Assembly: GCA_947175495.1 (NCBI GenBank)
Contig: CAMWNB010000001.1
Span: 1 to 64,000 of the forward strand
Direction of reading: 5' to 3'
DNA length: 64,000 nt
From: an uncultured Porphyromonadaceae bacterium
GTDB taxonomy: Bacteria > Bacteroidota > Bacteroidia > Bacteroidales > Muribaculaceae
Shown here: positions 32,138-54,065 of the stretch, piece after piece
Numbering within the stretch: position 1 is the first letter of the stretch
Layout of the letters: the number at the start of each line of letters is the position of its first letter
Notes under the pieces: model-generated
The model's database searches: none
What the model was told of the DNA's origin: nothing
The model's input: only the letters and a program-made list of their open reading frames with translations
Made by a program: the position numbers and the translations under genes

Positions 32138-34132
32138 TTAATTCTTCGCCTTAATAACTGCAGCGAAGCCACCGCCCGGCGCGAGCGACACGCGCAGGGG
32201 CGAAGCTGCGTCCACGGCCACGCGCTCTATGCGGTGGTCGGAGGGATGCTTTGCGGCGTTGACGCCGTCGCGGAGCACGATGGCCTCATAGGCGGATTCC
32301 GGAGCGAGGAAGGAGGTGTCGAGCGACAGCTCGCGCGGTTCGGTGCCGGTGATGGCGCCGATGTACCAGGTGTCGCCCTTGCGGCGCGCTATGGCCACAT
32401 ATTCGCCCACGCTGCCGGCGAGCACGCGCGTCTCGTCGAACACGGTGGGGATGGCGGCCATGAAGTCGGCGCAGGCGGGTTCGCGGTCGTAGGCCGTGGG
32501 CGAGTCGGCGAGCATCTGCAGGGCGCCGTCGTAGACCACATACATGGCCACCTGATGGGCGCGTGTGCCGAGGCTCATGGGCGCGTCGTTGCTCGGGCGG
32601 TAGGATGCGGCGGTGGAGTTGGTCATGGCGCCGGGCGTGTAGTCGAGCGGTCCGGCGGCCATGCGGATGAAGGGCACGGTGGCGTCGTAGCGCAGCTGGT
32701 CGGGTTGTCCGGGTTCGCCGAAGCGGCCCCACTTGTAGTTTTCAAGGCCTTTGACGCCCTCGTAGTTCACGATGTTGGGGTAGGTGCGGTGCAGTCCCAC
32801 GGGACGGAAGCCGTGCAGGTCGAGCAGCAGCCGGCTGTCGGCGGCAGCCTCGGCTATGCGCGCCACGGACGATATCACCTGCTGGTCGTCGCGGTCGAAG
32901 AAGTCGACCTTGAAGCCTTTCACGCCCATATCGGCGAAGCGGCGCATCAGCGCCGGCGCGTCGTCCTTGAGCTGTCGCCATGTGGCCCAGAGGATTATGC
33001 CCACGCCTTTGGAGGCGGCGTGGTCGATGATGGCCTGCAGGTCGATGTCGGGGTTGATGTCGAGCAGGTCGCCGTTGTCGGTGGCCCAGCCTTCGTCGAG
33101 AATGACGTATTCGAGGCCTTTGCGAGCGGCGAAGTCGATGTAGTGTCTGTAGGTGGCCGTGTTGATGCCGGCGGGGAAGTCGACGCCGGTGAGACCCCAG
33201 TCGTTCCACCAGTCCCACGCTACCTTGCCAGGGCGAATCCACGAGGTGTCGTGAATCTTCGAAGGTTCGGCAAGGCGCATGGCCAGGTCGAGGTCGGGCA
33301 GCTGTGCGTCGTCGCGAACCACGGCTACGGCTCGCCATGGCAACGCCGCCGTGCCTGCCGTGCGGGCTATGCAGCCGGCATCGGATGTGGGAATGAGATT
33401 GAGCCGGTTGAAGCCGCCCACCTTGTCGGTGGCGGGCAGCGGAGCGTGGATGCTTCCGAGCAGGCCGTCGCCCCGGTGGCGCAGCATCATGCCGGGATAG
33501 TCGTAGAGCGCGCCTTCCATCACCAGCGCCTTGACGCCGCCGTCGAGTTCGACAAGCAGGGGAGTCACTGCAAGGGTATCGGTCGGGAGTGTGGCGAGCG
33601 GAAGCTCGTCGTAATAGCTTTCAAAGGAGAAGCTGTAGGGATAGGACGGGTCGCGCAGGTCGTTGACGAGCGGCACCCATGCTTTGCTCCGGGGCGCGAA
33701 ACCGAACTCGGCGGTTTCGGAGATGATGGTCGCGCTGTCGGGCTGCGCCAGCACCACGCGGTAGGCGGCGGCATCGTCGTAGGCGCGCAGTTGCAGTGCG
33801 TAGCCTCCGCGCAGGTCGAGAGTGAGCTGGTTGTAGCGGTCGGCTACCGTCGTCTTGCGGTAGAGGGGTGTGTCGAACGTGGTGTCGACGCTGCTGCGGC
33901 GAGTGCGGCGCACCTTTGCGTCGGTGCCGAGCGTGCGTCCGTCGGCCAGTTCCACGGCAATGCGCGACGGGCGTATTACCTCTGTGCCGTCCATGGCGAT
34001 GCTCCATGTGAGCGTCTTGCCTGCGTCAACACTGATGCAGAGGCGTCCGTCGGGCGAGGCTACGGTGTAGGTGCGTGCCTGCGCGCAGCCTGCCACGAGC
34101 AGTGCGGCGGCGAGAATGTGGCGTAGTTTCAT
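32138..34132 (-). CDS. Glycoside hydrolase family 97, retaining type (alpha-galactosidase-like)
   Basis: 664 residues from ATG 34132 (MKLRHILAAALLVAGC), a lipoprotein signal with Cys16 and no acidic residues after it, so probably periplasmic-facing. Domains: N-terminal beta-supersandwich, (beta/alpha)8 barrel from about 290, C-terminal beta-domain. The barrel has WDWWNDWG, EYVILDEGWA and KGFKVDFFDRDDQQ with Asp410. In GH97 an Asp at this point marks the retaining alpha-galactosidase group, while inverting SusB-type enzymes lack it. It overlaps the GH43 gene by four bases (ATGA). The natural galactose of xyloglucan is beta-linked, so the true substrate is open; an alpha-galactoside or related alpha-linked sugar is possible. 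Confidence 0.88.
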   Translation of the reverse strand: MKLRHILAAALLVAGCAQARTYTVASPDGRLCISVDAGKTLTWSIAMDGTEVIRPSRIAVELADGRTLGTDAKVRRTRRSSVDTTFDTPLYRKTTVADRYNQLTLDLRGGYALQLRAYDDAAAYRVVLAQPDSATIISETAEFGFAPRSKAWVPLVNDLRDPSYPYSFSFESYYDELPLATLPTDTLAVTPLLVELDGGVKALVMEGALYDYPGMMLRHRGDGLLGSIHAPLPATDKVGGFNRLNLIPTSDAGCIARTAGTAALPWRAVAVVRDDAQLPDLDLAMRLAEPSKIHDTSWIRPGKVAWDWWNDWGLTGVDFPAGINTATYRHYIDFAARKGLEYVILDEGWATDNGDLLDINPDIDLQAIIDHAASKGVGIILWATWRQLKDDAPALMRRFADMGVKGFKVDFFDRDDQQVISSVARIAEAAADSRLLLDLHGFRPVGLHRTYPNIVNYEGVKGLENYKWGRFGEPGQPDQLRYDATVPFIRMAAGPLDYTPGAMTNSTAASYRPSNDAPMSLGTRAHQVAMYVVYDGALQMLADSPTAYDREPACADFMAAIPTVFDETRVLAGSVGEYVAIARRKGDTWYIGAITGTEPRELSLDTSFLAPESAYEAIVLRDGVNAAKHPSDHRIERVAVDAASPLRVSLAPGGGFAAVIKAKN

Positions 34133-35712
34133 TTTTCGGGTTTTTCGGTGTTGTATGTGAAATCTTTGAATGTGGCATCGGCAGCTTCGGGACCTGTGGC
34201 GAAAAGACCGATGGTCATGCCGGTGAAGCCTCCGGCGGTCTCGGTGGCGAGATAGCGCGCGTTGGCACGGCCCAGAGGCTTCCATGTGCGTCCGCCGTCG
34301 GTGCTGGCACTGAAGGCGTACATGTCGTCCTCGCCTTCCACGCGCAGCGTTACCTTGCTGCCTGCGCGCACGCCGACGGGCTCGAAACTGTGGGTGATGG
34401 CGTTCAGGCGCAGCGTGCACACGGCCTGCTGGTGTCCGTCGCCGAGGCTCTCCACAGCGGCGTCGTAGTGGCTGCCGCCGTCCATGTAGACGGTGATGCC
34501 TGCCCGGGTGCCTGCAGGGGCAGCAGGGTCGAGGCATAGCGTGGTTGTGGCGTCGAACACATGCTGCGTCTGCCGGATGCCCGTCCATGTGGGCGAGCCG
34601 CTGTCGTCAAGGCCTATGGGTGTGGCTGTCAGTGTCAGTCCCTGCGGGTCGAGGCGGTAGTTGTTGATGTGTGGGTTGCGCAGGTACACCCATTCATGGC
34701 CGAGGCGACGCGTGCGGGTGAAGTCGACGCGTCCGGAAGGCTTGTCGACCGGCACTTGCGGCAGCAGGGATGCGTTCATGTTCACGTCGAGCGTGCCGTC
34801 GGCGTTGACCACGGGCCATGCCCCTTCGTCCCAGCGCACCGGCGCCAGCATGGTCTCGCGGCCGAGCGTGTGCACGCCGTTGCCGATTGTGCGGTAGCCC
34901 AGAGCCACTATCCACCACGAGCCGTCGGGGGCGTCGACAAGGTCGGCGTGGCCGACCCCCTGGATGCGGCTGCCCTGCGCTGCCATGCGGAAGTTTGTGA
35001 GCAGCGGGTTGGACGGGTCGGGTGTGTAAGGGCCGTAGATGTCGCGGCTGCGTGCTATCGTCACACCGTGGCCCAGCTCGGTGCCTCCTTCGGCAATCAT
35101 GAGGTAGTACCAGCCGTCTTTCTTGTAGATGTGCGGTGCTTCGGGATGACGGCCGCCGGTACCCTGCCAGATGGCGCGCGATGGCGTCAGCTGCTTGCCC
35201 GTGGCGGGGTCGATCTCGCATAGCCATATGGCGCCGTCGGGGTTGCTGGTCATGTAGGCTTTGCCGTCCTCGAAATAAAGCGACGGGTCGATGCCTCCCT
35301 GCTCGAGCCATACGGGTTCCGACCACGGCCCTGCGGGGTCGGTGGCGGTGACGAAGAAATTGCCGCCGGCGGCCGGAGCCTGCGGTCCCACGTTGGTGGT
35401 GATCATGTAGAAGGTGCCGTCGTTGTAGCGTATGGTGGGCGCATATATGCCCAGCCATGCGTTGGCTTCGCCGAGCGGCAGCTGCGACGGTCGGTTGAGC
35501 ACGTTGCCTATCTGCTCCCAGTTGACGAGGTCGCGGCTGTGCCACAGAGGCACTCCCGGAAAGAACTGAAACGAGCTGTTGACAAGATAAAAATCGGAGT
35601 CGACGCGGCATATACTCGGGTCGGGGTAGAATCCCGGAATCACCGGGTTGGTGTATGTGCCTGCGGTGGCTGTTGCGGCCACTGCGAGTGCGGCAAGCAG
35701 TATGTTCTTCAT
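34129..35712 (-). CDS. Glycoside hydrolase family 43 (arabinofuranosidase/xylosidase type)
   Basis: 527 residues with signal peptide (about 1-18). The five-bladed propeller starts TNPVIPGFYPDPSICR with candidate base Asp31, has GGIDPSLYFEDGKAYM for the second acidic residue, and HPEAPHIYKKDGWYYL for the catalytic acid Glu. A C-terminal beta-sandwich from about 320 (FTRTRRLGHEWVYLRNP onward) is the extra domain found in xylosidase-like GH43 subfamilies. It removes alpha-L-arabinofuranose or beta-xylose from oligosaccharides in the periplasm. First gene of a two-gene operon with GH97 and with its own canonical promoter. Confidence 0.92.
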   Translation of the reverse strand: MKNILLAALAVAATATAGTYTNPVIPGFYPDPSICRVDSDFYLVNSSFQFFPGVPLWHSRDLVNWEQIGNVLNRPSQLPLGEANAWLGIYAPTIRYNDGTFYMITTNVGPQAPAAGGNFFVTATDPAGPWSEPVWLEQGGIDPSLYFEDGKAYMTSNPDGAIWLCEIDPATGKQLTPSRAIWQGTGGRHPEAPHIYKKDGWYYLMIAEGGTELGHGVTIARSRDIYGPYTPDPSNPLLTNFRMAAQGSRIQGVGHADLVDAPDGSWWIVALGYRTIGNGVHTLGRETMLAPVRWDEGAWPVVNADGTLDVNMNASLLPQVPVDKPSGRVDFTRTRRLGHEWVYLRNPHINNYRLDPQGLTLTATPIGLDDSGSPTWTGIRQTQHVFDATTTLCLDPAAPAGTRAGITVYMDGGSHYDAAVESLGDGHQQAVCTLRLNAITHSFEPVGVRAGSKVTLRVEGEDDMYAFSASTDGGRTWKPLGRANARYLATETAGGFTGMTIGLFATGPEAADATFKDFTYNTEKPEK

Positions 35713-35841: not shown

Positions 35842-37548
35842 TCAGAAGGGATAGCTGCCTTCGGCAGCGCCGTCCATCACGCCGTCGAGCTGATAGCTGC
35901 GGATGACGGAGCCGTCGCGGCGGTTGATGTCGCCGCCGGTTTCCCAGAAGAAAGGTACGCATCCGGCGTTCTTGGCCTCGCGGGTGACTACGCGGTTCCA
36001 CAGGCGGTGGCTGGCCTGATGCTTGGCTTTGTCAATGCTTGCGGCGTTGGAGCGGTCCACGCAGACGCAGTACTCGCCGATGATGGCGGGGATGCCTTTG
36101 TCGACGAATGCTGTCTTGATTTTCTGCATCTGCTGGCGCACGGATTCCTCGCTGTGGTTGAAGCAGTTGCGGTCGGAGCCGTCGACGAAGTTGTCGGCGC
36201 CCCAGTACCAGAACACCTTGCCCCAGTTGGCATCGGTTTCCATCATGTTGAACTGGTAGGGATCGTAGAAGTGGGCCTCGACCATGAGGCGGTCGTCTAC
36301 GACGTCGGCGGGCATGTGGTAGTAGCCGTTGGTGCCCTGGTCGATGTTGGTGTTGGGCATCTGCATCACGAGCACGCGCGAGGCGTTGTTGTCGCCGGTG
36401 GCGCGCACGGCATCGAGCATGGTCTGCTGATAGCGCATGATTGCGTCCACGCCGACGTTGTTGTTCTCGTTGCTGTTGGGCTCGTTCATGGCTGCGAACA
36501 GCAGGTGTTCGTCGTAGTGGTTGAGCTTCTCGGCGATCTGTGTCCAGTAGTCGTGCTGTTTCTTGTCGATGGCCTCGTTCCAGCCGTCAGGACAGCTGTT
36601 CTCGAGCCATCCGCCGTCCCAGTGGATGTTGAGGATGGCGTACATGCCGTTGCCGATTACATAACCCACCACTTCGTCCACGCGGTCGAGCCACGCGGGG
36701 TCGATGGTGTTGTTGGCTTCGTCGCTCACATGGCTGTCCCATGCGCAGGGGATGCGCACGGCGTTGAATCCGAGACCCGGCAGCGCAGCCACATAGGCTT
36801 CGTTCACGGGCATGCTCCAGTCGCCTTCCTTGCCGGGGCATTCCATGGTGTTGCCGATGTTGATGCCTGCGTACATTTTGGCGGCCAGTTCCTTGGCTGT
36901 GCTGCCTATCTCTGCGCTCATGGGCTTGGGCTCCTGGGTGAGGGTGACGGTTGCGTTGGCGGTTGCGTTGATGGTGAGCACAACTTCGCCGCTGCGGGCT
37001 TCCTTGCCGGTGTTGGCGGAGTATTCAAGAACGAGGGTGCCGTCGGTGAGGGCACGGCCGCCGTCGGTGGCTACGCGCATCCAGTCTGGAACGGACACGG
37101 AGGGATTTTCCGTGGCGGCGTATTTGATGGTGACGCTGCCGCCTTCGGGACGGAGGGTTTCGGAGGGTTCGATGGCGCTGATGATCACTGCCTTGCCGGC
37201 GAACTGGGTGACGTTCACCGTGGCCTTGTGCTGGCCGGCGCTGATGGCGATGGTGGCCGAGCGGGTTTCGCCGGTGGGGTTGATGTCGCCCTGCAGGCTC
37301 ACGGAGTAAATGCCTGCCTCCTTGGCTTCGGGCGAGCCGATGTGCAGCCACTCGGCCTCGGTGGCCAGGGTGGGCGAGGACGGCGCCTTCATGTTGAGTG
37401 TCTGCGCGGTGGCGCCGTCGAGGGCTACTTCGCTTTTCACCGTGATGCCGTCGCCCCACACGGGGCCGGGTTCGTATTCGTCGTTGTCGCTGCATGCCGA
37501 GAATCCGAGGGCCAGCATGCAGCCGAGTATCAAGTGTTTGAATTTCAT
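35842..37548 (-). CDS. Surface GH5 endo-glucanase/xyloglucanase lipoprotein with BACON-like domains
   Basis: 568 residues. Lipobox Cys19 followed by SDND marks outer-surface export in Bacteroidetes. Residues about 35-210 are two BACON-like Ig domains (ISAGQHKATVNVTQFAG and VVLTINATANATVTLTQEP ends). The GH5 barrel starts at AAKMYAGINIGNTMECPG (GH5_4-like), with GFNAVRIPCAWDSH, acid/base Glu356 in AAMNEPNS and nucleophile Glu492 in IIGEYCVC. GH5_4 includes the xyloglucan endo-hydrolases of known xyloglucan loci, so this should make the first cut at the cell surface. A terminator-like hairpin sits 15 bases before its ATG, leaving no room for a separate promoter. Confidence 0.9.
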   Translation of the reverse strand: MKFKHLILGCMLALGFSACSDNDEYEPGPVWGDGITVKSEVALDGATAQTLNMKAPSSPTLATEAEWLHIGSPEAKEAGIYSVSLQGDINPTGETRSATIAISAGQHKATVNVTQFAGKAVIISAIEPSETLRPEGGSVTIKYAATENPSVSVPDWMRVATDGGRALTDGTLVLEYSANTGKEARSGEVVLTINATANATVTLTQEPKPMSAEIGSTAKELAAKMYAGINIGNTMECPGKEGDWSMPVNEAYVAALPGLGFNAVRIPCAWDSHVSDEANNTIDPAWLDRVDEVVGYVIGNGMYAILNIHWDGGWLENSCPDGWNEAIDKKQHDYWTQIAEKLNHYDEHLLFAAMNEPNSNENNNVGVDAIMRYQQTMLDAVRATGDNNASRVLVMQMPNTNIDQGTNGYYHMPADVVDDRLMVEAHFYDPYQFNMMETDANWGKVFWYWGADNFVDGSDRNCFNHSEESVRQQMQKIKTAFVDKGIPAIIGEYCVCVDRSNAASIDKAKHQASHRLWNRVVTREAKNAGCVPFFWETGGDINRRDGSVIRSYQLDGVMDGAAEGSYPF

Positions 37549-41919: not shown

Positions 41920-43572
41920 CTATTCCCAGCCGGCGTTCTGGTGGAGCACGCCGTTGGAGAGGTTAATCTGGTTGAGAGGAATCTGGCTCAGACCGCGGGT
42001 TGCGATGATTTTCGCGCGGTCGTAGCTGACAGCAGCGTCAAGGCCGCCGGTCTTGACCGGACCGGCCGAGGCTGCGATCGCGTCGGCTGCCTTTTCCACA
42101 CCCTGGCGAAGGAGGTCCCAGTAGCGGTGGCCTTCGAAGGCGAGTTCGAGGGCGCGCTCGTTCATCACGTTGTCAAGCGTAGCGGGGACGCTGGGCAGGC
42201 CTGCGCGGCTGCGCACGGCGTCGAGGGCGTCCTGCGCGCTCATGGAGGGCACGCCGCCGAGCTCGGCCACCATCAGCAGCACGTCGGCGTAGCGCATGAT
42301 CACCCAGTCCTGCGAGTTGGTGATCTGGAAGTCGCCGCTGCCGTCGGGGCGCGAAGCGTTGAGCCCGTCGGGGAATGCGATGGGCGAGTACTTCTTATTG
42401 CAGAAGCCTGTGAACTCGCGCCAGTCCTTTACGCTTGCGCTGTAGTCGGGCGATGCTGCCACGCCCTCGCTTGCGAGGTTGATGAAGGTGGCGGCAAGGC
42501 GCGGGTCGTTGTTGGCGTAGCGTGCGGCGTAGGCGGGGGTGGCGGTGCCGATGCCCCATCCCTTGCCGTAGGGCGAGAAGTTGAGGGAGCGCATGCCCAG
42601 AAGCACCTGCCAGCGGTTGGAGTCGTTGTTTCCGTCGTAGTCCTGGGTGGGTGTGAACTTCATCTGCAGGATGAACTCGCTGTTGGCGGCGCCGGCGTAG
42701 GTGGATTTTTCGGGATCCCACTCGTTCTTGCCTTCTACGGGCACGAGCGAAGCTGCGGGCCAGAGGCTCTTGAATTCCTGGACGAGGCTGTACTGGCCGC
42801 AGCTCACGACGTCGTCGAGGTAGGCGAGCACCTCGGCCTTGGTCAGACCGGCGAGGTCCTTGCCATAGTAGCCGGTGTAGTAGAGGTACACGCGTGCGAG
42901 GAGGGATTCTGCGGCATATTTGGTGATTCGGCCGTTGTTGGCGGTGCCGAGGTTGGCGCCGTCGGGGATGTTGTCGGCGGCAAACTTGAGGTCGTCGACG
43001 ATTGCTGCGTACACGTCGTCGGGGTCGGCCTGCTCGCGGTTTTCGCTTGTGGGCTCAAGGAACAGGGGGATGTTGCCCCACAGGCGCACCATGTCGAAGT
43101 AGAGCAGTGCGCGCAGCGCGCGGCACTCGCCCATGTAGATGGCGCGGTTGCTTTCGCTCTCCCATGCTATCTGCTCCTCGTGGGCCACGAGTTCGTTGCA
43201 GCGGTAAACGCCTGCGTAGTACACTTTCCAGTCCTGCTCGTACATGTTCTGGTCGGACGGGCTCTTGCCGATGTCGAAACCGTCGATGGCCTGGTAGTTG
43301 TAGCCGTCGCCGATGCCGGCTCCGCCGAAAGCCTCGTCGCTCATGACGGTGGAGGCCACGTAGAAGCCGATGCCGGGGTTGGAGCTCACCTGGCGCCATC
43401 CGTCGTAGCAGCCGATGAGGGCGCGCCATGCGTCGCCTTCGGTCTTGTAGAAGTTCTCGGTGTTCGATTCGGTTTTGCTCGACACATCAAGGAAACTGTC
43501 GGAGCACGCGCCTGTCATGAGGCCCATGGCGGCGATGCCGGCAGTGAGTATGCTGTATTTGAACTTATTCAT
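41920..43572 (-). CDS. SusD/RagB-family outer-membrane glycan-binding lipoprotein
   Basis: 550 residues. Lipobox Cys23 followed by SDSFLDVSSKTE, the usual SusD start. N-terminal TPR-like helices include NFYKTEGDAWRALIGCYDGWR and ECRALRALLYFDMVRLWGNIPL; the C-terminal RagB/SusD part ends with YWDLLRQGVEKA and ISQIPLNQINLSNGVLHQNAGW. It forms the lid of the SusC pore and delivers oligosaccharides to it. Directly downstream of SusC with a 42-base gap, same transcript. Confidence 0.95.
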   Translation of the reverse strand: MNKFKYSILTAGIAAMGLMTGACSDSFLDVSSKTESNTENFYKTEGDAWRALIGCYDGWRQVSSNPGIGFYVASTVMSDEAFGGAGIGDGYNYQAIDGFDIGKSPSDQNMYEQDWKVYYAGVYRCNELVAHEEQIAWESESNRAIYMGECRALRALLYFDMVRLWGNIPLFLEPTSENREQADPDDVYAAIVDDLKFAADNIPDGANLGTANNGRITKYAAESLLARVYLYYTGYYGKDLAGLTKAEVLAYLDDVVSCGQYSLVQEFKSLWPAASLVPVEGKNEWDPEKSTYAGAANSEFILQMKFTPTQDYDGNNDSNRWQVLLGMRSLNFSPYGKGWGIGTATPAYAARYANNDPRLAATFINLASEGVAASPDYSASVKDWREFTGFCNKKYSPIAFPDGLNASRPDGSGDFQITNSQDWVIMRYADVLLMVAELGGVPSMSAQDALDAVRSRAGLPSVPATLDNVMNERALELAFEGHRYWDLLRQGVEKAADAIAASAGPVKTGGLDAAVSYDRAKIIATRGLSQIPLNQINLSNGVLHQNAGWE

Positions 43573-43614: not shown

Positions 43615-46600
43615 TTAGAGTGTGAGGTTCACACCGATGAGGAATGTGCGGGGACGGGGGTAGTAGCCCACGTCGATGCCGCTCACCCAGTCGCTGGTGC
43701 CATAGCCGATTTCGGGGTCCATGCCGTTGTACTTGGTGAAGGTGGCAAGGTTCTGCACCTGGAAGTAGAGGCGGCATTGCGAGCACCAGTTCTGCTTCAT
43801 GATGGGAGCGAAGTTGTAGCCCAGGGTGAGGTTGCTGAGGCGCAGGAAGTCGCCGTCGTGCACGTAGAGGTCGCTGAACAGCCAGTTGATGTTGCTGTTG
43901 GTCACGCGCGGGATTCGGTTGCTGGTGCCTTCGCCGGTCCAGCGGCCGAGAATCTCGGAGGTGTAGTTGGCCATCATGTTGGTCTGGTTGCGGTAGGTCT
44001 GCACGATCTTGTTGCCGGCGGCGCCGGTGGCGGTCAGGCCGAGGTCGAAGTTCTTGTAGTAGAGATTGATGTTGAAGCCGTAGGTGAATTTGGGCACGCC
44101 GTTGCCGAGGTTCACCTTGTCGTCGTCGTTGATGACGCCGTCGTGGTTCTGGTCGACGAACTTGACGTCGCCGGGCTGCACGTTGTTCTGGAGGATGCCG
44201 TTGCCGGCTGCGATCCAGTTGTCGATTTCCTGGCGGTTCTGGAAGATGCCTGCGGTCTGGTAGCCCCAGAAGTAGCCGATGGGCAGGCCGTTGCTGGCGC
44301 GGTAGAATTCGGGCGAGTTGTCATAGAGCTGGCCTGTCTCGCCGTGGATCATGCCGTCCTCGGTGGGGATGGAGCCCACTTTGTTGTTGTTGTAGGCGCC
44401 GTTCACGCTTACGCTGTAGGAGAAGTCGTTGCCGATGACGTCGTTCCACGCGATGCCGAGCTCGACACCGGTGTTTATCACGTCGCCGCCGTTGATGAAG
44501 GGAGCGTCGGTGCCGGCGGTGGCGAGGATGGGAGCCACAACGAGCCAGTCCTTGGTGCTCTTGCGATACCAGTCGAAGTTGACGCGCAGGCGGTTCTTCA
44601 GCAGGGTTGCGTCGAAGCCGAAGTCGAGCTGCTCGGAGGTTTCCCATGTGAGGTCCAAGTTGCCGAGGCGGCTGGGATATGCGCCCCAGTTGTTGCCGAG
44701 GATGGTCGCGTAGTCGCCGTAGGCTCCGTTCGGGCCCATGTACTGGCCGAAGAAGTAGTGGGTGTTGGTCACCTTGATGGGTGCGAGATACTGGTAGTTG
44801 TCGATGTTCTGGTTGCCGACACGGCCCCAGCTGCCGCGGATCTTGAGGTAGTCAAGCCATGTGCGGGTGCTTTCCATGAAGTTTTCGTTGCTGATGTTCC
44901 AGCCGGCCGACACGGAGGGGAATGTGCCGAAGCGGTGGCCCTTGGCGAATTTCGAGGAGCCGTCGGAGCGCAGCGTGAAGTTGATCATGTACTTTTCTTT
45001 CCAGTTCCATCCCAGACGGCCGAAGTAGCTGACGCTGCGGGCGTTGTCGTGGGGGTTGCCGCTGGCGCTGAGACCGTCGGCCGTGGTGGCGGCGGTGCCG
45101 TTGCTGATCCATGCGTAGGGCCAGGTGTCGAAACCTTCCTTGAGGTCGCGCTGGCTGGCGCCCAGATAGGTGCCTTCGTAGCGGTAGGCTTCCATGCCGA
45201 CCATTGCGTTGAACTGGTGGTCCTTGATGTTCCAGTCGTAGGTGACGGTGTTGGTCCATGTAAGGCCCAGGCTGTGGTTCATGTTCTGGTTGACGGAAGT
45301 GTGGTCATTATAATCGTACACGGACAATCTATATATAGGACGGAAGCTGCGGTACTCGCTGGAGCCGTAGACTGCACCGAACACGGTGCGGATCTTGAGG
45401 TTCTTGATGGGTTCGATCTGGGCGTAGACGTTGCCCGAGAAGGTTGCCGTCTTGGTGTCGTTCTGATTGTTCAGCATCATGTTGGCGTAGGGGTTGCCGG
45501 CGCCGTTGCTGTATGCGCTGTTGCTGGAGTCGAAGTAGCTGCCGTCCTCGGTGTAGATGGGGAAGGCGGGGATGGCGCCGAATGCGCCGCGCAGGGTGTT
45601 GTTGTACTGGTTGCCGACACCGATGCCGCGCTTCTTGGCATATACGAAGCTGGCCTGCTCGCCCACGGTGAGGATTCCGTCGAAGAGCTTGTGGTCGGAG
45701 TTGATGCGGAAGTTGTAGCGCGAGTAGTTGCTGACGTCTTTGCCGCCGCCGATGCCTTCCTGGTTGAGGTAGCCGAGGCTGAGGGCGTAGGTGCTGGTCT
45801 TGGAGCCGCCGCTGACACCGATGGTGTAGCTCTGCGTGGTGGCGTTGTCCTTGAACATGCTGTCCACCCAGTCGGTGTCGTAGGCACCTGTGGAGAGGCC
45901 GTCGGCTGAGTAGTTGCGCCACATTTCGGGGAAGCTGTTCCAGTCGTAGGGAGCGGAGCCGTCGGCAATCTGCTGCTCGTTCATGATGGCCTTGTACTGC
46001 TCGGCGTTGAGCATGTCGATTTTCTTGGCTACGCTCTGCCAGCCGAAGTATCCGTCGAAGGTGACGGTGGCCTTGCCTTCGCGACCCTGCTTGGTGGTGA
46101 TGAGCACAACGCCGTTGGCTGCCTGTGCGCCGTAGATGGCTGCCGATGCGGCATCCTTCAGCACGTCGATGCTCTCGATGTCGGCGGGATTGAGGGTGGA
46201 GATGTCGCCGCCCACGCCGTCGATGAGGTAGAGGGGCTGTGCGTTGCCCACGGTGCCGAGACCGCGGATCTGCACTTTCATGCCTTCGCCGGGCTGGCCC
46301 GAGGTGGAGCTGATGTTCACGCCGGGGAGCTGGCCCTGCATGGCCTGCAGAGGCGAGGTGGTGTTCATCTTGGCGATGTCGTCGCCCTTGATCTGGGCGG
46401 TGGCGCCGGTGACGAGTTTCTTCTTCATCACGCCGTAGCCCACGACCACGAGTTCGTTGAGGCTCTCGGCGTTCTCGGAGAGTGCGACGTCGAGGTTTGT
46501 ACCGGTCACCTTGATGTCGCGGGGAGTGAATCCGATGTAGGAGAAGGTCAGAGTGGCGCCTTGGCTCACCTTGATGGTGTAGTTGCCGTCGATGTCGGTA

Positions 46601-46797
46601 GTGACGCCGTCTTTGGCGCCTTTCACCGTGACGGATGCGCCGATGAGGGGCTCGCCGTCGGAGGCTGAGGTTACTGTACCTGTGACTGTAAGCGCCTGGG
46701 CGCTCGCTGCCACACTGCCCACCAACAGGCAAAGCGCCAGAAGCAGAGCCCTTGTGGAGCTAAGCCAATGGCACCGTTCGCAATGTTTTTGTCCCAT
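43615..46797 (-). CDS. SusC/RagA-family TonB-linked outer-membrane transporter
   Basis: 1060 residues. After the signal peptide comes a carboxypeptidase-D-like domain (TVTGTVTSASDGEPLIGASV), a TonB-box region (SLNELVVVGYGVMKKK), the plug domain (MQGQLPGVNI, QIRGLGTVGNAQPLYLIDGV, IDVLKDAASAAIYGAQAANG) and a 22-strand barrel ending in FLIGVNLTL. It imports large oligosaccharides across the outer membrane with the SusD lid, energised by TonB. First gene of the leftward operon. Its -7 box has no -33 partner but has an array of ATGTT sites upstream, fitting activation by the divergent HTCS. Confidence 0.96.
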   Translation of the reverse strand: MGQKHCERCHWLSSTRALLLALCLLVGSVAASAQALTVTGTVTSASDGEPLIGASVTVKGAKDGVTTDIDGNYTIKVSQGATLTFSYIGFTPRDIKVTGTNLDVALSENAESLNELVVVGYGVMKKKLVTGATAQIKGDDIAKMNTTSPLQAMQGQLPGVNISSTSGQPGEGMKVQIRGLGTVGNAQPLYLIDGVGGDISTLNPADIESIDVLKDAASAAIYGAQAANGVVLITTKQGREGKATVTFDGYFGWQSVAKKIDMLNAEQYKAIMNEQQIADGSAPYDWNSFPEMWRNYSADGLSTGAYDTDWVDSMFKDNATTQSYTIGVSGGSKTSTYALSLGYLNQEGIGGGKDVSNYSRYNFRINSDHKLFDGILTVGEQASFVYAKKRGIGVGNQYNNTLRGAFGAIPAFPIYTEDGSYFDSSNSAYSNGAGNPYANMMLNNQNDTKTATFSGNVYAQIEPIKNLKIRTVFGAVYGSSEYRSFRPIYRLSVYDYNDHTSVNQNMNHSLGLTWTNTVTYDWNIKDHQFNAMVGMEAYRYEGTYLGASQRDLKEGFDTWPYAWISNGTAATTADGLSASGNPHDNARSVSYFGRLGWNWKEKYMINFTLRSDGSSKFAKGHRFGTFPSVSAGWNISNENFMESTRTWLDYLKIRGSWGRVGNQNIDNYQYLAPIKVTNTHYFFGQYMGPNGAYGDYATILGNNWGAYPSRLGNLDLTWETSEQLDFGFDATLLKNRLRVNFDWYRKSTKDWLVVAPILATAGTDAPFINGGDVINTGVELGIAWNDVIGNDFSYSVSVNGAYNNNKVGSIPTEDGMIHGETGQLYDNSPEFYRASNGLPIGYFWGYQTAGIFQNRQEIDNWIAAGNGILQNNVQPGDVKFVDQNHDGVINDDDKVNLGNGVPKFTYGFNINLYYKNFDLGLTATGAAGNKIVQTYRNQTNMMANYTSEILGRWTGEGTSNRIPRVTNSNINWLFSDLYVHDGDFLRLSNLTLGYNFAPIMKQNWCSQCRLYFQVQNLATFTKYNGMDPEIGYGTSDWVSGIDVGYYPRPRTFLIGVNLTL

Positions 46798-46888: not shown

Positions 46889-46931
46889 CAAAGTTAAGAT
46901 ATATTAAATTATGCGCGTGCGCCGCGATGTT
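46889..46931 (-). promoter_or_regulatory. susC promoter: AACAT, 30 bases, TAACTTTG
   Basis: On the minus strand AACAT (46931-46927), 30 bases, TAACTTTG (46896-46889). No TTTG at the normal -33 distance. The same spacing occurs before GH31 (51084-51126). Confidence 0.55.
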
Positions 46932-47017
46932 GCTTTGCGTGGCATAAATCGTTATGCTCTCCGCTTTAAATGTTACATAGCGGGGTATAAAATGTTGCAT
47001 CAGACTCAAAATATGTT
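46927..47017. promoter_or_regulatory. Phased ATGTT array between susC and the HTCS gene (putative HTCS operator)
   Basis: ATGTT starts at 46927, 46970, 46992 and 47013: spacings 43, 22 and 21, i.e. multiples of about 21.5 bp or two helix turns. Extended forms are ATGTTGC, ATGTTACAT, ATGTTGCAT, ATGTTATAG. The missing position near 46948 holds the related ATCGTT. AraC-type domains usually bind direct repeats with such spacing. Confidence 0.5.
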
Positions 47018-47060
47018 ATAGAACATGTAAATTAACATTCAGACAGAGGGGTTCATTGGT

Positions 47061-47068
47061 TAATTTTG
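47061..47068 (+). promoter_or_regulatory. -7 box of the HTCS gene
   Basis: TAATTTTG 24 bases before the ATG at 47092. No convincing -33 box. Confidence 0.4.
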
Positions 47069-47091
47069 CATTGAAATAATTCAATCCATCC

Positions 47092-50000
47092 ATGAAACGT
47101 TGCTTCTTAGCATATATAATATGTGTCATTGCAGGCGCGGCGGGCGCGTGGGCCGCTTCCGGCTATCAGTTCCGCCATCTTCCGGCCGGCATGCATCTGT
47201 CGAGCAAGCTTGTCAACGCCATTTACCAGGACGACGAAGGGTTTGTGTATTTCGGAACAGCCTCGGGTCTGTACAGGTATGATGGCTACAGCGTGCGCGC
47301 CTATATGCGCGACGACGCCGATTCCACATCGCTCCACGACAGCTATGTCGAAGACCTCATGCGCGCTCCGGACGGCCGGATATGGGTGCGTGCCGGCGGC
47401 ACCTACTCCATCTTCGATCCGGCGCTGGACCGTTTCGACCGGCGTGTCGACGAGGTGTGTCGCTCCATGGGCGTGGAGGAGCTGCCGGCGTATGTGGCTT
47501 TCGGCTCCGACGGTTCATGCTGGATGGCCGTGGATGGAGATGGCCTCTATCGCCACCGCAACAAAGTGACCGTCAAGGTGGACGACCCCGACGGCCTGCT
47601 GCGTCGCGCGCAGCCCTGCGACCTTGTGGAAGTGGGGCAGGGGCGCATGCTGTATGTCGACATGGACGGCAATATGGTGTTTCTTGACGGCCGCACCTCG
47701 CGCATCACCGGAGTGACCCGCGTGCCGGTGTCGCCCGGAACTCCCCGCGAGGTATATACCGCATATGTCGACCGCGAGGGCCTCGTGTGGGTGTTTTCGC
47801 GAAGCGGGCTGTGGCTCTACAACGATGCTGCGGCCGGCTGGCACGAGAGCTATGGCGGCGCGCCGCTGCCGCAGGGCCATGTGATGGCTGTCATGCAGGA
47901 CCGGCTCGGGCGCGTGTGGATAGGCTACGACCACGATGGCCTGGCTATAATCGAGAAAAACGGCCGCACGCAGCATGTGTCGAGTGTGGTCGAGGATGCT
48001 CGCACGCTCAGCAGCAACACTGTCACCGTGCTCATGGAGGACCGCTCGGGCAGCGTGTGGGTCGGCTCGCGCAAGAACGGCATATCCATCTACGACGACA
48101 GTGCCTTCAAATTCGATTTCACTCCGTTTCCCGACGTGAACTGCATAGTGCCTGCCGGCGATGGCAATCTTTGGCTCGGAACCGACAGCAAGGGCTTGAT
48201 ATGTTGGAATAAGGCTACCGGCGACAGCCGCACCGTCGATACGGCTCGTCCGGGTCGCATGGCGGATGCCATCGTGTGTCTCGAAGTGGGCGCCGACGGC
48301 ACCGTGTGGGCCGGAACGTTCAGCGGCGGCCTGCTGCGCGTCGACCGCTCCGGGCGTGTAGCCCGCTTCACGACGGCTGACGGTCTTGCGTCCGACAACG
48401 TCTGGTCCGTAGACAGCCGCCCCGACGGCTCGTTGCTCCTGGGCACGCTCGGCGGAGGTCTGCAGGTCTACGACCCTGCAACGCGCAGGTCGACTGTTTA
48501 CAATCCCTCCAATTCTCCGTTAGGGTCGGAGTATGTGAGTTCGGTGGCGGCAGCCCCGGACGGCCGCTATTATCTGGGCACATCCTGCGGGCTCGGTGTG
48601 TACGACCCTTCCGAGGGCCGCGTCGAGAACCTCACCGGCAACCGCCGCGGCTCGCAGCAATTCGTCAACGTCAACATCAACCAGGTGATGGTCGACAGCC
48701 GCGGCCTGCTGTGGGTGGCCACCCGTGAGGGGCTTGACGTGTACGACAGTGCGACGGACAGCATCCACCGCGTGCCGGTCGGCCCGGGCCGATTCGTCCT
48801 CGGATTGGCCGAGGACGACAATCACACCGTGTGGGTCAGCGCCGGCAGTGAACTTATGAGTGTAACAGTCTCCACCGACACTGTCGGCAACGGCCGCAGC
48901 TTCGACATCCACACCTACGACAGCAGTGACGGCTTGCAGACGTGCGACTTCAACCAGCGGTCGCTCTGTCTCACTCCCGACGGAGAAATGCTCGTCGGGG
49001 GATTCTACGGTGTCAATAGTTTCCGGCCCAATAGCTTGAAGCTCGGCACGGTAGAACCGCGTGTCTATTTCACGGAGCTTTCGCTGTTCAACGAAGAGGT
49101 GAAGGTGGGCGAAGTGCGCAACGGACGGGTGCCGTTGCCGCGGCGTCTCAGCGAATTGCAGGAAATAGAGCTGGACTACAGCGACAATGAATTTGCAGTC
49201 ACTTTCGCCACCGACTGCTATGTGAAGCCCGAAAAGACCGTCTACTACTATAAGCTCGACGGCTTCAGCGACGACTGGCGACAGCTCGCCGGCAACGCCC
49301 ACCGCGTGGGATATACCAACCTTTCGCCGGGGCGCTACACGCTGCATGTGAAGGCGTTCAGCGGCGACGGTGTGGCTTCGTCGAATGTTGCCTCGCTCGG
49401 CATTGTGATCCGGCCGCCGTTTTACGCCACGACCACGGCAAAAGTGATCTACGCGCTGCTTGTCGCCGTGTTTGTGTTCTTGGCGTTCCGTCAGATCCGT
49501 CGCCACGAACAGCGCCTGTCGCGCAGGCGGGAGCGCCGCGAGGCCATGCGCAAGCAGGAAGAACTCGACCAGCTGAAATTCCGTTTCTTCACCAACGTCA
49601 GCCACGAGCTGCGCACCCCGCTCACGCTTATCACTGCGCCGCTCGACTCCCTGCTCAAAAAAGACTGCGATCCGGACACACGCGAGAAACTCGACATAAT
49701 CCACGACAATGCCTCGCGCCTGTTGTATCTTGTGAATCAGCTGCTCGACTTCCGCAAAAACGAGGTGGCGGGCCTGACCCTCAATCCGTCGCGCGGCGAT
49801 GTGGTGCGCTTCGTGCGCTCCATATGCGACTCTTTTATATCGCTGTCGGACGCGCGCCACATACATCTCACGTTCTTCAGCAACGTCGACTCGCTCACTA
49901 TGGATTTCGACGAGGACAAGATGAGCAAGATCGTGATGAACCTGCTGAGCAACGCATTCAAGTTCACTCCCGAGAACGGCCGTGTGGACGTGTCGCTGTC

Positions 50001-51063
50001 GCTTGAAGGTTCAAATCTTGTAATAGCCATTGCCGATACCGGCTGCGGCATCTCCGACGACGACAAGCAGCGCATCTTCGAGCGTTTCTATCAGGCCGGC
50101 AAAGGAAAGCACCCTGCCGGGGGCACGGGCATAGGTTTGAGCCTTGTGGCCGAATATGTGCGTCTGCACGGCGGTAAGGTGTCGGTGGCCGACAATGCCT
50201 TGAGGGGCACGGTGTTTACCGTGAGCATCCCTGTGCACGCCGCCGACGTGCGCGGGGATGCTCACGGCGAGCGCGCAGCCGTGGTCGATGTGGACGCGCG
50301 CGGCTCCGACATGCCGCGTCTGCTTGTGGTCGACGACAATCCCGATCTGCTGCGGTTCATGGTGTCGGAGCTCAATGCGGAGTATGCCGTGGTCACCGCG
50401 GCCGACGGCAACGAGGCGCTTGCCGAAGTGGGCCGCGCCAAGCCCGACGTCATCGTCAGCGATCTGATGATGCCCGGAATGGACGGCATTGAGCTGTGCC
50501 GCCGTCTCAAGAGCGATGATGCCACGGCCTCCATCCCCCTTCTCATCCTTACTGCCAAACACGAGGTGGCAGCCAAGATAGAGGGACTCACTCTCGGCGC
50601 CGACGATTACATGACCAAACCTTTCAATATCGACGAGCTGAGGCTGCGCATGAAAAAACTGCTCGACCTGCGCGGGCGAGGCGCGCGCCGCGCCCTCATA
50701 GACCCCGAGCCGCAGAGCATCGCCATCACATCGCTCGACGAGAAGCTGATAGAGCGCGCCGTCAGCTATGTCGACGAAAACATGCAGCGTCCCGACCTTT
50801 CGGTGGAAGAGCTCTCCGCCGAACTGGGTATGAGCCGTGTCCACCTCTACAAGCGTCTGAAGCAGATCACCGGCAAGACCCCCATAGAGTTCATCAGAGT
50901 GCTCCGTCTGAAGCGCGCCGCCCAGCTGTTGCGCGAAAGTCAGCTTAACATCAGCGAGATAGCGTACCGCTGCGGATTCAACAATCCTAAGTATTTCAGC
51001 CGCTATTTCAAGGAGGAATTCGGAGTGTTGCCGTCGGTCTACCAGGAAAAAGAAGGGAAATAA
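47092..51063 (+). CDS. Hybrid two-component system sensor/regulator (HTCS) of the hemicellulose locus
   Basis: 1323 residues joining sensor, kinase and DNA-binding regulator in one protein. Signal peptide (about 1-22); periplasmic sensor of two Reg_prop propellers (repeats such as GFVYFGTASGLYRYDG, GLVWVFSRSGLWLYN); Y_Y_Y domain near 700-780; one membrane helix near 785-803 (ALLVAVFVFLAF). Inside the cell: HisKA with His838 in NVSHELRTPLTL, HATPase (MNLLSNAFKFTPENG, GTGIGLSL), receiver domain with phospho-acceptor Asp1124 in VSDLMMPGMDG, and an AraC-type HTH at the end (LSAELGMSRVHLYKRL, IAYRCGFNNPKYFSRYF). It should sense an oligosaccharide in the periplasm and activate the flanking operons, probably through the ATGTT/AACAT sites. 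Confidence 0.96.
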   Translation: MKRCFLAYIICVIAGAAGAWAASGYQFRHLPAGMHLSSKLVNAIYQDDEGFVYFGTASGLYRYDGYSVRAYMRDDADSTSLHDSYVEDLMRAPDGRIWVRAGGTYSIFDPALDRFDRRVDEVCRSMGVEELPAYVAFGSDGSCWMAVDGDGLYRHRNKVTVKVDDPDGLLRRAQPCDLVEVGQGRMLYVDMDGNMVFLDGRTSRITGVTRVPVSPGTPREVYTAYVDREGLVWVFSRSGLWLYNDAAAGWHESYGGAPLPQGHVMAVMQDRLGRVWIGYDHDGLAIIEKNGRTQHVSSVVEDARTLSSNTVTVLMEDRSGSVWVGSRKNGISIYDDSAFKFDFTPFPDVNCIVPAGDGNLWLGTDSKGLICWNKATGDSRTVDTARPGRMADAIVCLEVGADGTVWAGTFSGGLLRVDRSGRVARFTTADGLASDNVWSVDSRPDGSLLLGTLGGGLQVYDPATRRSTVYNPSNSPLGSEYVSSVAAAPDGRYYLGTSCGLGVYDPSEGRVENLTGNRRGSQQFVNVNINQVMVDSRGLLWVATREGLDVYDSATDSIHRVPVGPGRFVLGLAEDDNHTVWVSAGSELMSVTVSTDTVGNGRSFDIHTYDSSDGLQTCDFNQRSLCLTPDGEMLVGGFYGVNSFRPNSLKLGTVEPRVYFTELSLFNEEVKVGEVRNGRVPLPRRLSELQEIELDYSDNEFAVTFATDCYVKPEKTVYYYKLDGFSDDWRQLAGNAHRVGYTNLSPGRYTLHVKAFSGDGVASSNVASLGIVIRPPFYATTTAKVIYALLVAVFVFLAFRQIRRHEQRLSRRRERREAMRKQEELDQLKFRFFTNVSHELRTPLTLITAPLDSLLKKDCDPDTREKLDIIHDNASRLLYLVNQLLDFRKNEVAGLTLNPSRGDVVRFVRSICDSFISLSDARHIHLTFFSNVDSLTMDFDEDKMSKIVMNLLSNAFKFTPENGRVDVSLSLEGSNLVIAIADTGCGISDDDKQRIFERFYQAGKGKHPAGGTGIGLSLVAEYVRLHGGKVSVADNALRGTVFTVSIPVHAADVRGDAHGERAAVVDVDARGSDMPRLLVVDDNPDLLRFMVSELNAEYAVVTAADGNEALAEVGRAKPDVIVSDLMMPGMDGIELCRRLKSDDATASIPLLILTAKHEVAAKIEGLTLGADDYMTKPFNIDELRLRMKKLLDLRGRGARRALIDPEPQSIAITSLDEKLIERAVSYVDENMQRPDLSVEELSAELGMSRVHLYKRLKQITGKTPIEFIRVLRLKRAAQLLRESQLNISEIAYRCGFNNPKYFSRYFKEEFGVLPSVYQEKEGK

Positions 51064-51083
51064 CAAATCAACCCCCATACGCT

Positions 51084-51126
51084 AACATAACACCCCGCCG
51101 CATTAGTGCGCAAAATGTTAACTTTG
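51084..51126 (+). promoter_or_regulatory. GH31 operon promoter: AACAT, 30 bases, TAACTTTG
   Basis: AACAT 51084-51088, exactly 30 bases, TAACTTTG 51119-51126; a related AACAA lies 22 bp further up (51062-51066, at the HTCS stop codon). No standard -33 box. Same layout and same -7 octamer as susC. ATG at 51183, leader about 50 bases. Confidence 0.55.
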
Positions 51127-51182: not shown

Positions 51183-54065
51183 ATGAAACTACGCAAATTG
51201 TCGCTCATGCTCGCTGCCGCGGCTATTCCCGCTCTTCTGGGCGGTTGCACCAAGGCCTATTCCAAGGACGGGCAGAGCGTAATCATCAAGGTAGATCCGG
51301 CCAAGGCCGGCGGCGCCGAAAAGGTACGCCTCCAGGTGTTAGGCCCGAAAATCATCCGCGTGAGCGCCACCCCGACATCGGATTTCGCAGCCGACGCCAG
51401 CCTCGTGGTGCTTGAGCAGGAAAAGTATTCCGACTTCACAGTCGAGCAGGAGAACGACAGCACCATCCGTGTCGCCACGCCCGAAATCAGCGCCACGGTG
51501 AGCACCCTTACCGGCGCAGTCTCCTTCTACGACAAGGACGGCAGCCTCATCCTGGCAGAAAACGGCGGTGGCCGCAATTTCACGCCCATCAGCGTGGAGG
51601 GCACCGACTCCTATAGCGTGCAGCAGACATTCGCCTCGCCCGACGACGAGGAAGGCCTCTACGGCCTCGGCCAGCACCAGAGCGACGAGTTCAACTACAA
51701 GGGACTCAACGAAGAACTCTTCCAGTACAACACCAAAGTGTCGGTGCCCTTTGTGGTGTCCACGGGCAACTACGGTGTGCTGTGGGACAGCTACTCGCTG
51801 CTGCGCTTCGGCCGCCCCGACGACTACAAGCAGCTCGGCGAGGCATTCAAGCTCTACGATAAAGACGGCAACGAAGGCGCCCTCACCGGCACCTATACCC
51901 AGGCCGACGGTAAGGTGATGACCCGCCGTGAGGACAAGCTCTACTTCGAGCACCTCAAGCGCGGCGATCTCGACCATGTGGTCAACGCTCCCGAGGACTT
52001 TAAGTTCCAAGGCGGCAAAGTGGTGTACGAAGGCGACATCGTGCCCGAAACCACCGGCGACTATAACTTCATCCTCTATTATTCCGGTTATCAGAAGGTC
52101 TACATCGACGGCAAGCTCGTCGTGCCCGAACGCTGGCGCACCGCCTGGAATCCCAACAGCTACAAGTTCACCGTGGCTCTTGAAGCCGGCAAGCGCACTC
52201 CTCTGCGCATCGAATGGGAACCCAACGGCGGCGTGGCCTACTGCGGCCTCCGCGTCTACACTCCCGGCGAGGACATCAACAAGAACGACATGAGCTGGTG
52301 GGGCGAGATGCAGGACATGATCGACTACTACTTCATCGGCGGCGACTCCATGGACGACGTCATCCACGGCTACCGCACCCTCACCGGCAAGGCTCCCGTG
52401 ATGCCCCGCTGGGCAATGGGTTACTGGCAGAGCCGCGAGAAGTACAACACCCAGGAGGAGGTGCTCTCCACCCTGGCCGAGTACCGCAAGCGCAACATCC
52501 CCATCGACAACATCGTCATCGACTGGCTGCACTGGCCGCAGGACGCATGGGGAAGCCATGAATTCGACCGCAACCGTTTCCCCGACCCTAAGGGCATGGT
52601 CGACAGCATCCACGCCATGAACGGCCGCGTGATGATTTCGGTGTGGCCGAAGTTCTACGTCACCACCGAACACTACAAGGAATTCGACAAGAACGGCTGG
52701 ATGTATCAGCAGGCCGTCAAGGACAGCATCCGCGACTGGGTGGGTCCCGGCTACCTCGGCTCGTTCTATGACGCCTACAATGCCGACGCACGCAAGCTCT
52801 TCTGGCATCAGATGGAAGAGCACTACTATCCCCTCGGCATCGATGCCTGGTGGATGGACGCCAGCGAGCCCAACATCCGCGACTGCACCGACATCCAGTA
52901 CCGCAAGGACCTCTGCGGTCCCACGGCCCTCGGTCCCTCAACCAAGTACTTCAACGCCTACGCCCTCATGAACGCCGAGGCCATCTACGACGGCCAGCGC
53001 GGCGTCGACCCCGACAAGCGCGTGTTCCTGCTCACCCGCAGCGGTTTCGCAGGCCAGCAGCGCTACAGCACCGCCACCTGGAGCGGCGACATCGCCACCC
53101 GCTGGGAGGACATGGCCGCCCAGATAGCCGCCGGCCTCAACTTCGCCGTCAGCGGCGTGCCTTACTGGACCATGGACATCGGCGGCTTCTGCGTGGAGGA
53201 CCGCTACGTGGCCGCCCAGAAGCTCTTCAACGAGAAAGGCATCGAGAACGCCGACCTCAAGGAATGGCGCGAGCTCAACAGCCGCTGGTTCCAGTTCGGC
53301 GCCTTCGCGCCCCTCTACCGCGCCCACGGCCAGTGGCCTTTCCGCGAAATCTTCAACATCGCCCCCGAAGGCCATCCCGCCTATGAGTCGATGCTTTACT
53401 ACACTCGCCTGCGCTACAACCTGATGCCCTACATCTACTCGCTGGCCGGCAAGACCTATTTCGACGACTACACCATCATGCGTCCGCTCGTCATGGACTT
53501 CGCAGCCGACAAGCGTGTGCGCGACATCAAGGACCAGTTCATGTTCGGCCCCGCCTTCATGGCCGCTCCTGTCACCACCTATGGTGCCCGCGAGCGCGAG
53601 GTCTACTTCCCCGCCGGCGCCGAGTGGTACGACTTCTACACCGGCAAGGCCTACAAGGGCGGCGAAACGGCCACCGTGCCTGCTCCCTACGGCCGCATGC
53701 CCCTGTTCGTTGCCTCCGGCTCCATTGTGCCTTTCGGCCCCGACATGCAGTGGAGCGCCGAGAAGCCTGCCGAAGTAATCGACCTTTACGTCTACACCGG
53801 CCGCGACGGCTCGTTCACTCTCTACGAAGACGAGAACCTCAACTACAACTACGAGAAAGGCGCCTACGCCAACATCCCCTTCGCATGGAACCAGGCCACG
53901 GGCACACTCACCATCGGCGACCGCAACGGCGAGTTCCCCGGCATGCTCAAGGAACGTAAGTTCAACGTGGTCAAGGTGAGCCCCGACGCTCCCGCTTCGT
54001 TCGACAGCCGCTCCGCCGGCAAGCTCGTCGACTACGACGGCCATGCCGTGAGCGTGCAGCTCTAA
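51183..54065 (+). CDS. Glycoside hydrolase family 31 alpha-xylosidase with PA14-like insert
   Basis: 960-residue lipoprotein (Cys22 in LLGGC, no acidic residues after, so likely facing the periplasm). N-terminal beta-sandwich, then a PA14-like insert at about 280-365 (GDYNFILYYSGYQKVYIDGK, LRIEWEPNGGVAYCGLRVY), then the barrel. The nucleophile is Asp559 in WWMDASEPNI and the acid/base Asp636 in WSGDIATRWEDM. The aromatic-rich entry MPRWAMGYWQSREKYNTQEE is typical of GH31 alpha-xylosidases. A PA14 insert is known in alpha-xylosidases that act on xyloglucan oligosaccharides, where it reaches along the chain. It removes the non-reducing alpha-1,6-xylose. First gene of the rightward operon. Confidence 0.93.
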   Translation: MKLRKLSLMLAAAAIPALLGGCTKAYSKDGQSVIIKVDPAKAGGAEKVRLQVLGPKIIRVSATPTSDFAADASLVVLEQEKYSDFTVEQENDSTIRVATPEISATVSTLTGAVSFYDKDGSLILAENGGGRNFTPISVEGTDSYSVQQTFASPDDEEGLYGLGQHQSDEFNYKGLNEELFQYNTKVSVPFVVSTGNYGVLWDSYSLLRFGRPDDYKQLGEAFKLYDKDGNEGALTGTYTQADGKVMTRREDKLYFEHLKRGDLDHVVNAPEDFKFQGGKVVYEGDIVPETTGDYNFILYYSGYQKVYIDGKLVVPERWRTAWNPNSYKFTVALEAGKRTPLRIEWEPNGGVAYCGLRVYTPGEDINKNDMSWWGEMQDMIDYYFIGGDSMDDVIHGYRTLTGKAPVMPRWAMGYWQSREKYNTQEEVLSTLAEYRKRNIPIDNIVIDWLHWPQDAWGSHEFDRNRFPDPKGMVDSIHAMNGRVMISVWPKFYVTTEHYKEFDKNGWMYQQAVKDSIRDWVGPGYLGSFYDAYNADARKLFWHQMEEHYYPLGIDAWWMDASEPNIRDCTDIQYRKDLCGPTALGPSTKYFNAYALMNAEAIYDGQRGVDPDKRVFLLTRSGFAGQQRYSTATWSGDIATRWEDMAAQIAAGLNFAVSGVPYWTMDIGGFCVEDRYVAAQKLFNEKGIENADLKEWRELNSRWFQFGAFAPLYRAHGQWPFREIFNIAPEGHPAYESMLYYTRLRYNLMPYIYSLAGKTYFDDYTIMRPLVMDFAADKRVRDIKDQFMFGPAFMAAPVTTYGAREREVYFPAGAEWYDFYTGKAYKGGETATVPAPYGRMPLFVASGSIVPFGPDMQWSAEKPAEVIDLYVYTGRDGSFTLYEDENLNYNYEKGAYANIPFAWNQATGTLTIGDRNGEFPGMLKERKFNVVKVSPDAPASFDSRSAGKLVDYDGHAVSVQL

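Follow-up and report, generated by a model that had tools for sequence, protein, structure and literature searches.

The locus analysed here raises the question of which protein recognises the repeated sequences in front of two divergent gene groups, and how these repeats are placed relative to the promoters that they might control. In the window, i.e., the whole 64-kb stretch of DNA (64,000 nucleotides) that was studied, the two groups lie on either side of an HTCS gene (47092-51063, plus strand). Its product has the architecture of the HTCS family, with sensor, histidine kinase, receiver and AraC-type helix-turn-helix on a single chain (in Pfam terms, propeller sensor, Y_Y_Y, HisKA, HATPase, receiver and AraC-type HTH_18). 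Divergent from it, a SusC-like TonB-dependent transporter gene (43615-46797, minus strand) is the first of a presumed minus-strand unit that includes genes for a SusD-like protein (41920-43572) and a GH5 protein with BACON domains (35842-37548). A GH97 gene at 32138-34588 ends the susC-side group. A GH31 gene (51183-54065, plus strand) lies 3' of the HTCS gene, and GH43, GH2 and GH3 genes are present as well, all family assignments being based on Pfam.

The GH31 protein has BoGH31A, an α-xylosidase of Bacteroides ovatus, as its closest solved structure (5jou, 1495 bits), and deletion of the BoGH31A gene stops growth of B. ovatus on xyloglucan according to the consulted part of PMC4967831. Matches of the GH5 protein are GH5 endoglucanases, including solved relatives, some of which are named xyloglucanase, an activity that is only predicted for the window protein. 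The SusD-like protein matches BACOVA_02651 of B. ovatus weakly (2e-14) and other proteins better. As far as the xyloglucan utilization locus of B. ovatus is described in the same part of PMC4967831, both loci encode a BoGH31A-type GH31, GH5, GH43, GH2, GH3, SusC and SusD. In contrast, the window locus has a GH97 gene, a family absent from the B. ovatus xyloglucan enzymes named in that text, and its gene order is assumed to be different. Judged from these similarities, the PUL is likely of the xyloglucan type, with xyloglucan as its probable substrate.

The consensus given for the -7 box is TAnnTTTG (PMC7366714, as far as consulted). The octamer TAACTTTG, which fits this consensus, occurs in the predicted start regions of susC (46889-46896, minus strand) and GH31 (51119-51126, plus strand). 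An initial annotation had claimed that AACAT precedes the octamer by exactly 30 bases at both promoters, and this is correct, AACAT being located at 46931-46927 on the minus strand and at 51084-51088 on the plus strand. Equally correct are the related AACAA 22 bp above 51084, which is found at 51062 and overlaps the HTCS stop codon, and the claimed lack of a -33 box, since neither TTTG nor TTG is seen by eye at the -33 position within 45 nt upstream of either octamer. A genome-wide search for AACAT-N30-TANNTTTG in the 2.34-Mb assembly returns two matches, both at this locus, against one for the reversed pattern; within the window there are 2 matches versus 0.00 expected, a count that is post hoc because the pattern was taken from its own two sites. 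A fairer test looks in the 60 bp above both octamers for a run of at least five identical bases at the same offset. Such a run is also reached by 570 of 5000 pairs after shuffling, so that the equal spacing, which had been called striking, is by itself weak evidence. The predicted operator of GH31 consists of a distal half-site AACAAATCAACCCCC (51062-51076, plus strand), which lies at -57 and extends over the HTCS stop codon, and a proximal half-site AACATAACACCCCGC (51084-51098) at -35.

Strong evidence comes, unlike from the N30 coincidence, from the phased array on the susC side. ATGTT starts at 46927, 46970, 46992 and 47013, i.e., in steps of 43, 22 and 21 bp, as had been described. Four AACAT on a 21.5-bp lattice within 125 bp are obtained in none of 5000 shuffles, and any 5-mer occurring four times on such a lattice in none of 2000. 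The 43-bp gap is filled by a degenerate AACGA at 46953, contained in AACGATTTATGCC, which resembles AACATTTTATACC at 46996. The completed array thus has five units in steps of 21, 22, 21 and 22 bp, their starts being located at -121/-100/-78/-57/-35 above the -7 box. All of them are on the minus strand: unit 1 (AACATCGCGGCGCAC, 46917-46931, at -35) has lost the CCCC; unit 2 (AACGATTTATGCCAC, 46939-46953, at -57) is the degenerate one; unit 3 (AACATTTAAAGCGGA, 46960-46974, at -78) forms the top dimer of the window together with unit 4 (AACATTTTATACCCC, 46982-46996, at -100), which is also the best single half-site of the window; and unit 5 (AACATATTTTGAGTC, 47003-47017) lies at -121. Unit 5 is opposite a plus-strand AACAT, so that an inverted pair ATGTT-N4-AACAT is formed (47013-47027), and the pair or a one-base variant is also encountered in all three close orthologs described below. 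The HTCS gene has a candidate -7 box of its own, TAATTTTG, at 47061-47068, and the inverted pair might be a site controlling the HTCS gene itself.

Six of 49 genomes of the genus, including the one under study, have a match to the HTCS at E 1e-200 or better. Three of these, L002, L003 and L004, whose HTCS is 63-68% identical, retain the order susC-HTCS-GH31, and their GH31 promoters contain the dimers AACATTTCAATCCCC/AACATTTGCACCCCC, AACATTTTTACACCC/AACATTTTAGACCCC and AACATTTCAACACCC/AACATTTACACCCCC, with 22 bp between the two copies in each case. Because these dimers agree, the half-site can be written approximately as AACATTT-N4-CCCC, a 15-bp unit recurring every 21-22 bp. The 7-mer (A/T)TGTT(A/G)C, with which the initial annotation had intended to search, is therefore too short, as the half-site also has CCCC eleven bases past its start. 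With the window counted, all four GH31 promoters have the second AACAT of the dimer exactly 30 bp above TAnnTTTG. All four susC promoters retain the -100/-78 pair, although its -78 copy reads AACAA in L003 and L004, and in the alignment of the gap the AACATTT at 46996 is invariant. The -35 AACAT on the susC side is found with N29 in L002 and is missing in L003 and L004, which have AACGC at the place equivalent to unit 2.

When a matrix was built from the six GH31-promoter half-sites of L002, L003 and L004 only, so that the window was held out, its three best matches on both strands of the window (about 128,000 positions) were the two promoters, with 26.4 and 20.2 bits at susC and 20.1 bits at GH31. 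The next separate match, at 24506 on the minus strand, reaches 10.8 bits and has a poor second half. A loose pattern, AACAN7CCCN{7,9}AACA, was discarded as uninformative genome-wide, giving seven matches in the own genome, both PUL sites among them, versus five for its reverse.

In the wider family, the HTCS is matched at 1e-250 or better in 26 of 297 genomes, a number that includes the genome under study, and the named relatives are Muribaculaceae. Among 31 ortholog loci that were looked at, 25 have matches to SusC as well as to GH31, three of the SusC matches being short (53-83 aa). Some loci are near-duplicates, and the counts that follow are not independent because of shared ancestry. AACAW is present at -76 to -79 in 28 of 36 deduplicated ortholog promoters, versus 7/88 and 0/34 promoters of other HTCS targets and 0/43 controls, whereas AACAT at -34 to -36 occurs in 12 of the 36, versus 2/88, 1/34 and 2/43. 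At a period of 21.5 the 103 AACAW of 35 ortholog promoters are phased with R 0.65, compared to 0.06 for 90 AACAW in 121 promoters of other HTCS targets. Conservation is thus highest for the -78 unit and its partner at -100 (46974 and 46996) and not for the -35 copy.

The dimer is also found outside the family. In L334 and L335, two genomes of one genus from a different family, AACAAATGATACCCC-N7-AACATTTGATGCCCC and a close copy are located beside an HTCS gene, 100 and 99 bp above TAnnTTTG, the registers being -100/-78 and -99/-77. L189, which is the same place as L334, has AACAT at -34 too. A second matrix, made from ten half-sites of the window and its close orthologs, gives these dimers 32.0 and 37.3 bits. 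By comparison, 400 kb of control DNA contain no dimer that reaches 14 bits, and 821 kb from other HTCS loci contain four, the best of them at 17.6. The DNA-binding domains of the HTCS in L334 and L335 are 68 and 72% identical to that of the window, and the helix region GFNNPKYFSRYFK is shared. L334 and L335 are the two with a dimer among nine larger GH31 regions of other families; the other seven have no dimer of 14 bits (best 12.2). None of 15 short GH31-centred loci (L319-L333) has the dimer, and of 14 other HTCS-homolog loci only L189 does.

Across the 49 genus genomes the pattern AACATTTN5CCN8AACATTT is matched exactly four times, always at this HTCS locus. With one mismatch there are six elsewhere, versus two for the reversed pattern. 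One of these six precedes a GH3 gene by 92 bp, its units being placed exactly at -57/-35; it is in the genome G006, which has an HTCS homolog. One-mismatch dimers that are near-identical copies of AACATTTrATACCGTATTAGGTAACATTT occur on two separate contigs of G007 (L290 on C45 and L291 on C55), around which no PUL gene was recognised by reading ORF lists alone. A search for the complete layout, with two copies of AACAT at a distance of 22 bp, N30 and TAnnTTTG, one mismatch being allowed, covered 27 genomes with an HTCS match, including the four discovery genomes, and gave 17 matches versus 4 for the reversed layout. Seven of the 17 belong to the HTCS locus (the four discovery sites among them), another four lie off the locus before GH3, GH2, GH94 and GH5 genes, the GH94 site being without the CCCC part, and six (6 of 10 off-locus matches) are before unrelated genes or within ORFs. 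Away from its HTCS locus, a single relative, G074, has the full layout before genes of GH2, GH94 and GH5 (L310, L314 and L316), sites which could belong to a wider xyloglucan/cellulose regulon.

Motif, lattice, conservation and co-occurrence with the HTCS and its DNA-binding domain are observed. That the repeats arose by chance in A+T-rich intergenic DNA might be suggested by the ease with which shuffled pairs reproduce the N30 coincidence (570 of 5000), but the lattice, which no shuffle of 5000 reproduces, the first three ranks with the held-out matrix, and the conservation in orthologs make this explanation hardly credible. AraC-type regulators are common and some motif matches lie away from the HTCS, and so a different regulator, whether an AraC-type protein other than the HTCS or a global carbon regulator, might use the repeats at this locus. 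Such a regulator seems improbable to us, given that all four exact dimers of the 49 genus genomes are confined to the HTCS locus, that the dimer recurs in another family together with the DNA-binding domain, and that in the window there are sites on either side of the HTCS gene. The repeats have the form of AraC-type direct repeats, and their most likely role, as had been supposed initially, is that of operators of the HTCS at 47092, since the motif tracks this HTCS across species and is phased to the -7 box. We thus consider it very probable that the HTCS encoded between them is the protein that binds them.

A variant of this explanation retains the same HTCS and takes the -100/-78 pair (46996/46974) as the working site on the susC side, the -35 AACAT there being optional or decayed. 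The pair is the top dimer of the window and is kept in the susC promoters of all four close orthologs, AACAW is present at -76 to -79 in 28 of 36 wider promoters compared to 12 of 36 for the -35 copy, and the dimers in the other family are placed at -100/-78 and -99/-77. However, the GH31 promoters of the four close orthologs have only the -57/-35 pair, as does the GH3 promoter of G006, so that activation has to be possible from a position beside the -7 box, and L189 has its additional AACAT at -34. On balance this variant is a serious candidate, to which we would give somewhat less than an even chance.

If the HTCS is indeed the protein acting at these repeats, its array could compensate for a missing core element. 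The promoter-proximal unit covers -35 to -21 from TAnnTTTG, and TTTG at the -33 place (-21 to -26 from TAnnTTTG) is found in 1 of 27 repeat-bearing versus 6 of 39 control promoters (Fisher p=0.23); it is missing in 26/27 of the former, but also in 33/39 of the control candidates. The geometry is compatible with a putative replacement of the -33 box by the activator. An S/CHIP motif in the α3-β4 loop of the receiver has been reported to keep the DNA-binding domain inactive (PMC11253607, as far as consulted), and the HTCS of the window (47092-51063) has ASIP at this place, from which a relaxed inhibition of the DNA-binding domain is predicted. His at the second position of the motif occurs in 1 of 26 ortholog-clade loci in which the loop was found (31 tried), versus 88 of 95 other HTCS loci (161 tried).

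The register to the -7 box was also studied at other HTCS loci by a test that does not depend on any motif, namely self-repetition of the non-coding sequence above TAnnTTTG near HTCS genes. Among 140 candidates surveyed first, the discovery loci L001-L006 included, the peak was at lag 21 and offset 35. In a new set of 79 loci (L111-L189, of which L189 belongs to the xyloglucan clade), where ORFs of 1200 aa or longer were taken as HTCS genes, 77 deduplicated target promoters from 51 loci show at this offset and lag an identity 0.113 above that at other lags (t 5.4, p 7.5e-7), or 0.118 if counted per locus (p 3.7e-6), versus -0.007 for 39 control promoters in the same test. A repeat of lag 21/22 in register is present in 27/77 targets and 2/39 controls (Fisher 2e-4), while six wrong-lag pairs yield 1-6 of the 77. 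The maximum of the new set is at offsets 36-40 and not exactly at 35. A second set of 34 promoters is weaker, with +0.083 at offset 35 (p 0.021, Wilcoxon 0.059) and p=0.073 at offset 38. In the first test set the lag-21 identity rises a second time, to a lower level, around offset 68, some three helical turns above the main peak, which is perhaps a second class of activator position. At L173, another HTCS locus of the same genome, TGTCCGATTTGTGTT is followed at a distance of 21 bp by a copy identical at 14 of 15 positions, which starts 37 bp above TAACTTTG; half-sites thus differ between HTCS regulators. In the first set the promoters of the HTCS genes themselves gave a weak signal, with p=0.011 at offset 35 (+0.052) and p=0.0014 at offset 38 (+0.069) and a repeat in 8 of 57. 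The second set gave none, and autoregulation by the same geometry is therefore not proposed.

Direct repeats of about 21 bp are already published for HTCS. In the consulted text of Ravcheev et al. (2013; PMC3878776), HTCS operators of Bacteroides are direct repeats of two conserved half-sites averaging 21 bp apart, and motifs were predicted for 16 of 36 HTCS-PUL pairs of B. thetaiotaomicron. The sites of the window share with them, as described there, the spacing (22 bp at GH31, 21-22 bp at susC), the location before susC/PUL genes flanking an AraC-type HTCS and the conservation before orthologous genes; this likeness concerns the geometry. In contrast to the operators of that text, the susC side has a ladder of up to five units with a measured register. 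The fixed register to the -7 box is possibly new, as neither a multi-unit lattice nor its lock to the -7 box was met in a literature search of openly readable text.

A well-known relative of this arrangement is AraC of E. coli at araBAD, where the half-sites I1 and I2 form a direct repeat two helical turns apart and the proximal one is located by the upstream core element. The repeats of the window resemble it in their AraC-type half-sites, their two-turn spacing and, putatively, the position of the proximal unit by the upstream core element, and differ from it in the receiver-controlled DNA-binding domain, the Bacteroidota -7 promoter and the presence of more than two units.

The following picture of binding and activation, of the ligand, of the extent of the operons and of the order in which units are occupied is inferred. 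One unit (approximately AACATTT-N4-CCCC, 15 bp) would be the footprint of a single AraC-type DNA-binding domain, and since 21-22 bp correspond to two helical turns, the domains would be aligned head to tail along the same face of the double helix, on a lattice locked to the -7 box with units 35, 57, 78, 100 and 121 bp above TAnnTTTG. A xyloglucan oligosaccharide might be sensed in the periplasm, whereupon the phosphorylated HTCS would fill the array. Acting either from the unit nearest the promoter or from -100/-78, it would recruit RNA polymerase to promoters that lack a recognisable -33 element. The SusC/SusD/GH5/GH43/GH97 genes on one side and the GH31/GH2/GH3 genes on the other would thereby be switched on. 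A general rule for HTCS promoters, which has in our view close to an even chance of being right, would be a lattice of about 21.5 bp phase-locked to the -7 box, with the proximal unit some 35-40 bp above TAnnTTTG and an own half-site for each HTCS; the xyloglucan clade would then be distinguished by a ladder of up to five units and by the loss of the S/CHIP contact, and its HTCS may sit on the array before induction.

Many HTCS-PUL pairs are without a known operator. The half-site of a xyloglucan-type regulator in two families, together with the register rule, would aid the prediction of operators and start sites from sequence as well as the design of promoters for commensals that respond to sugars. 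A register that holds would also tell how such activators touch RNA polymerase where the -33 element is weak or absent.
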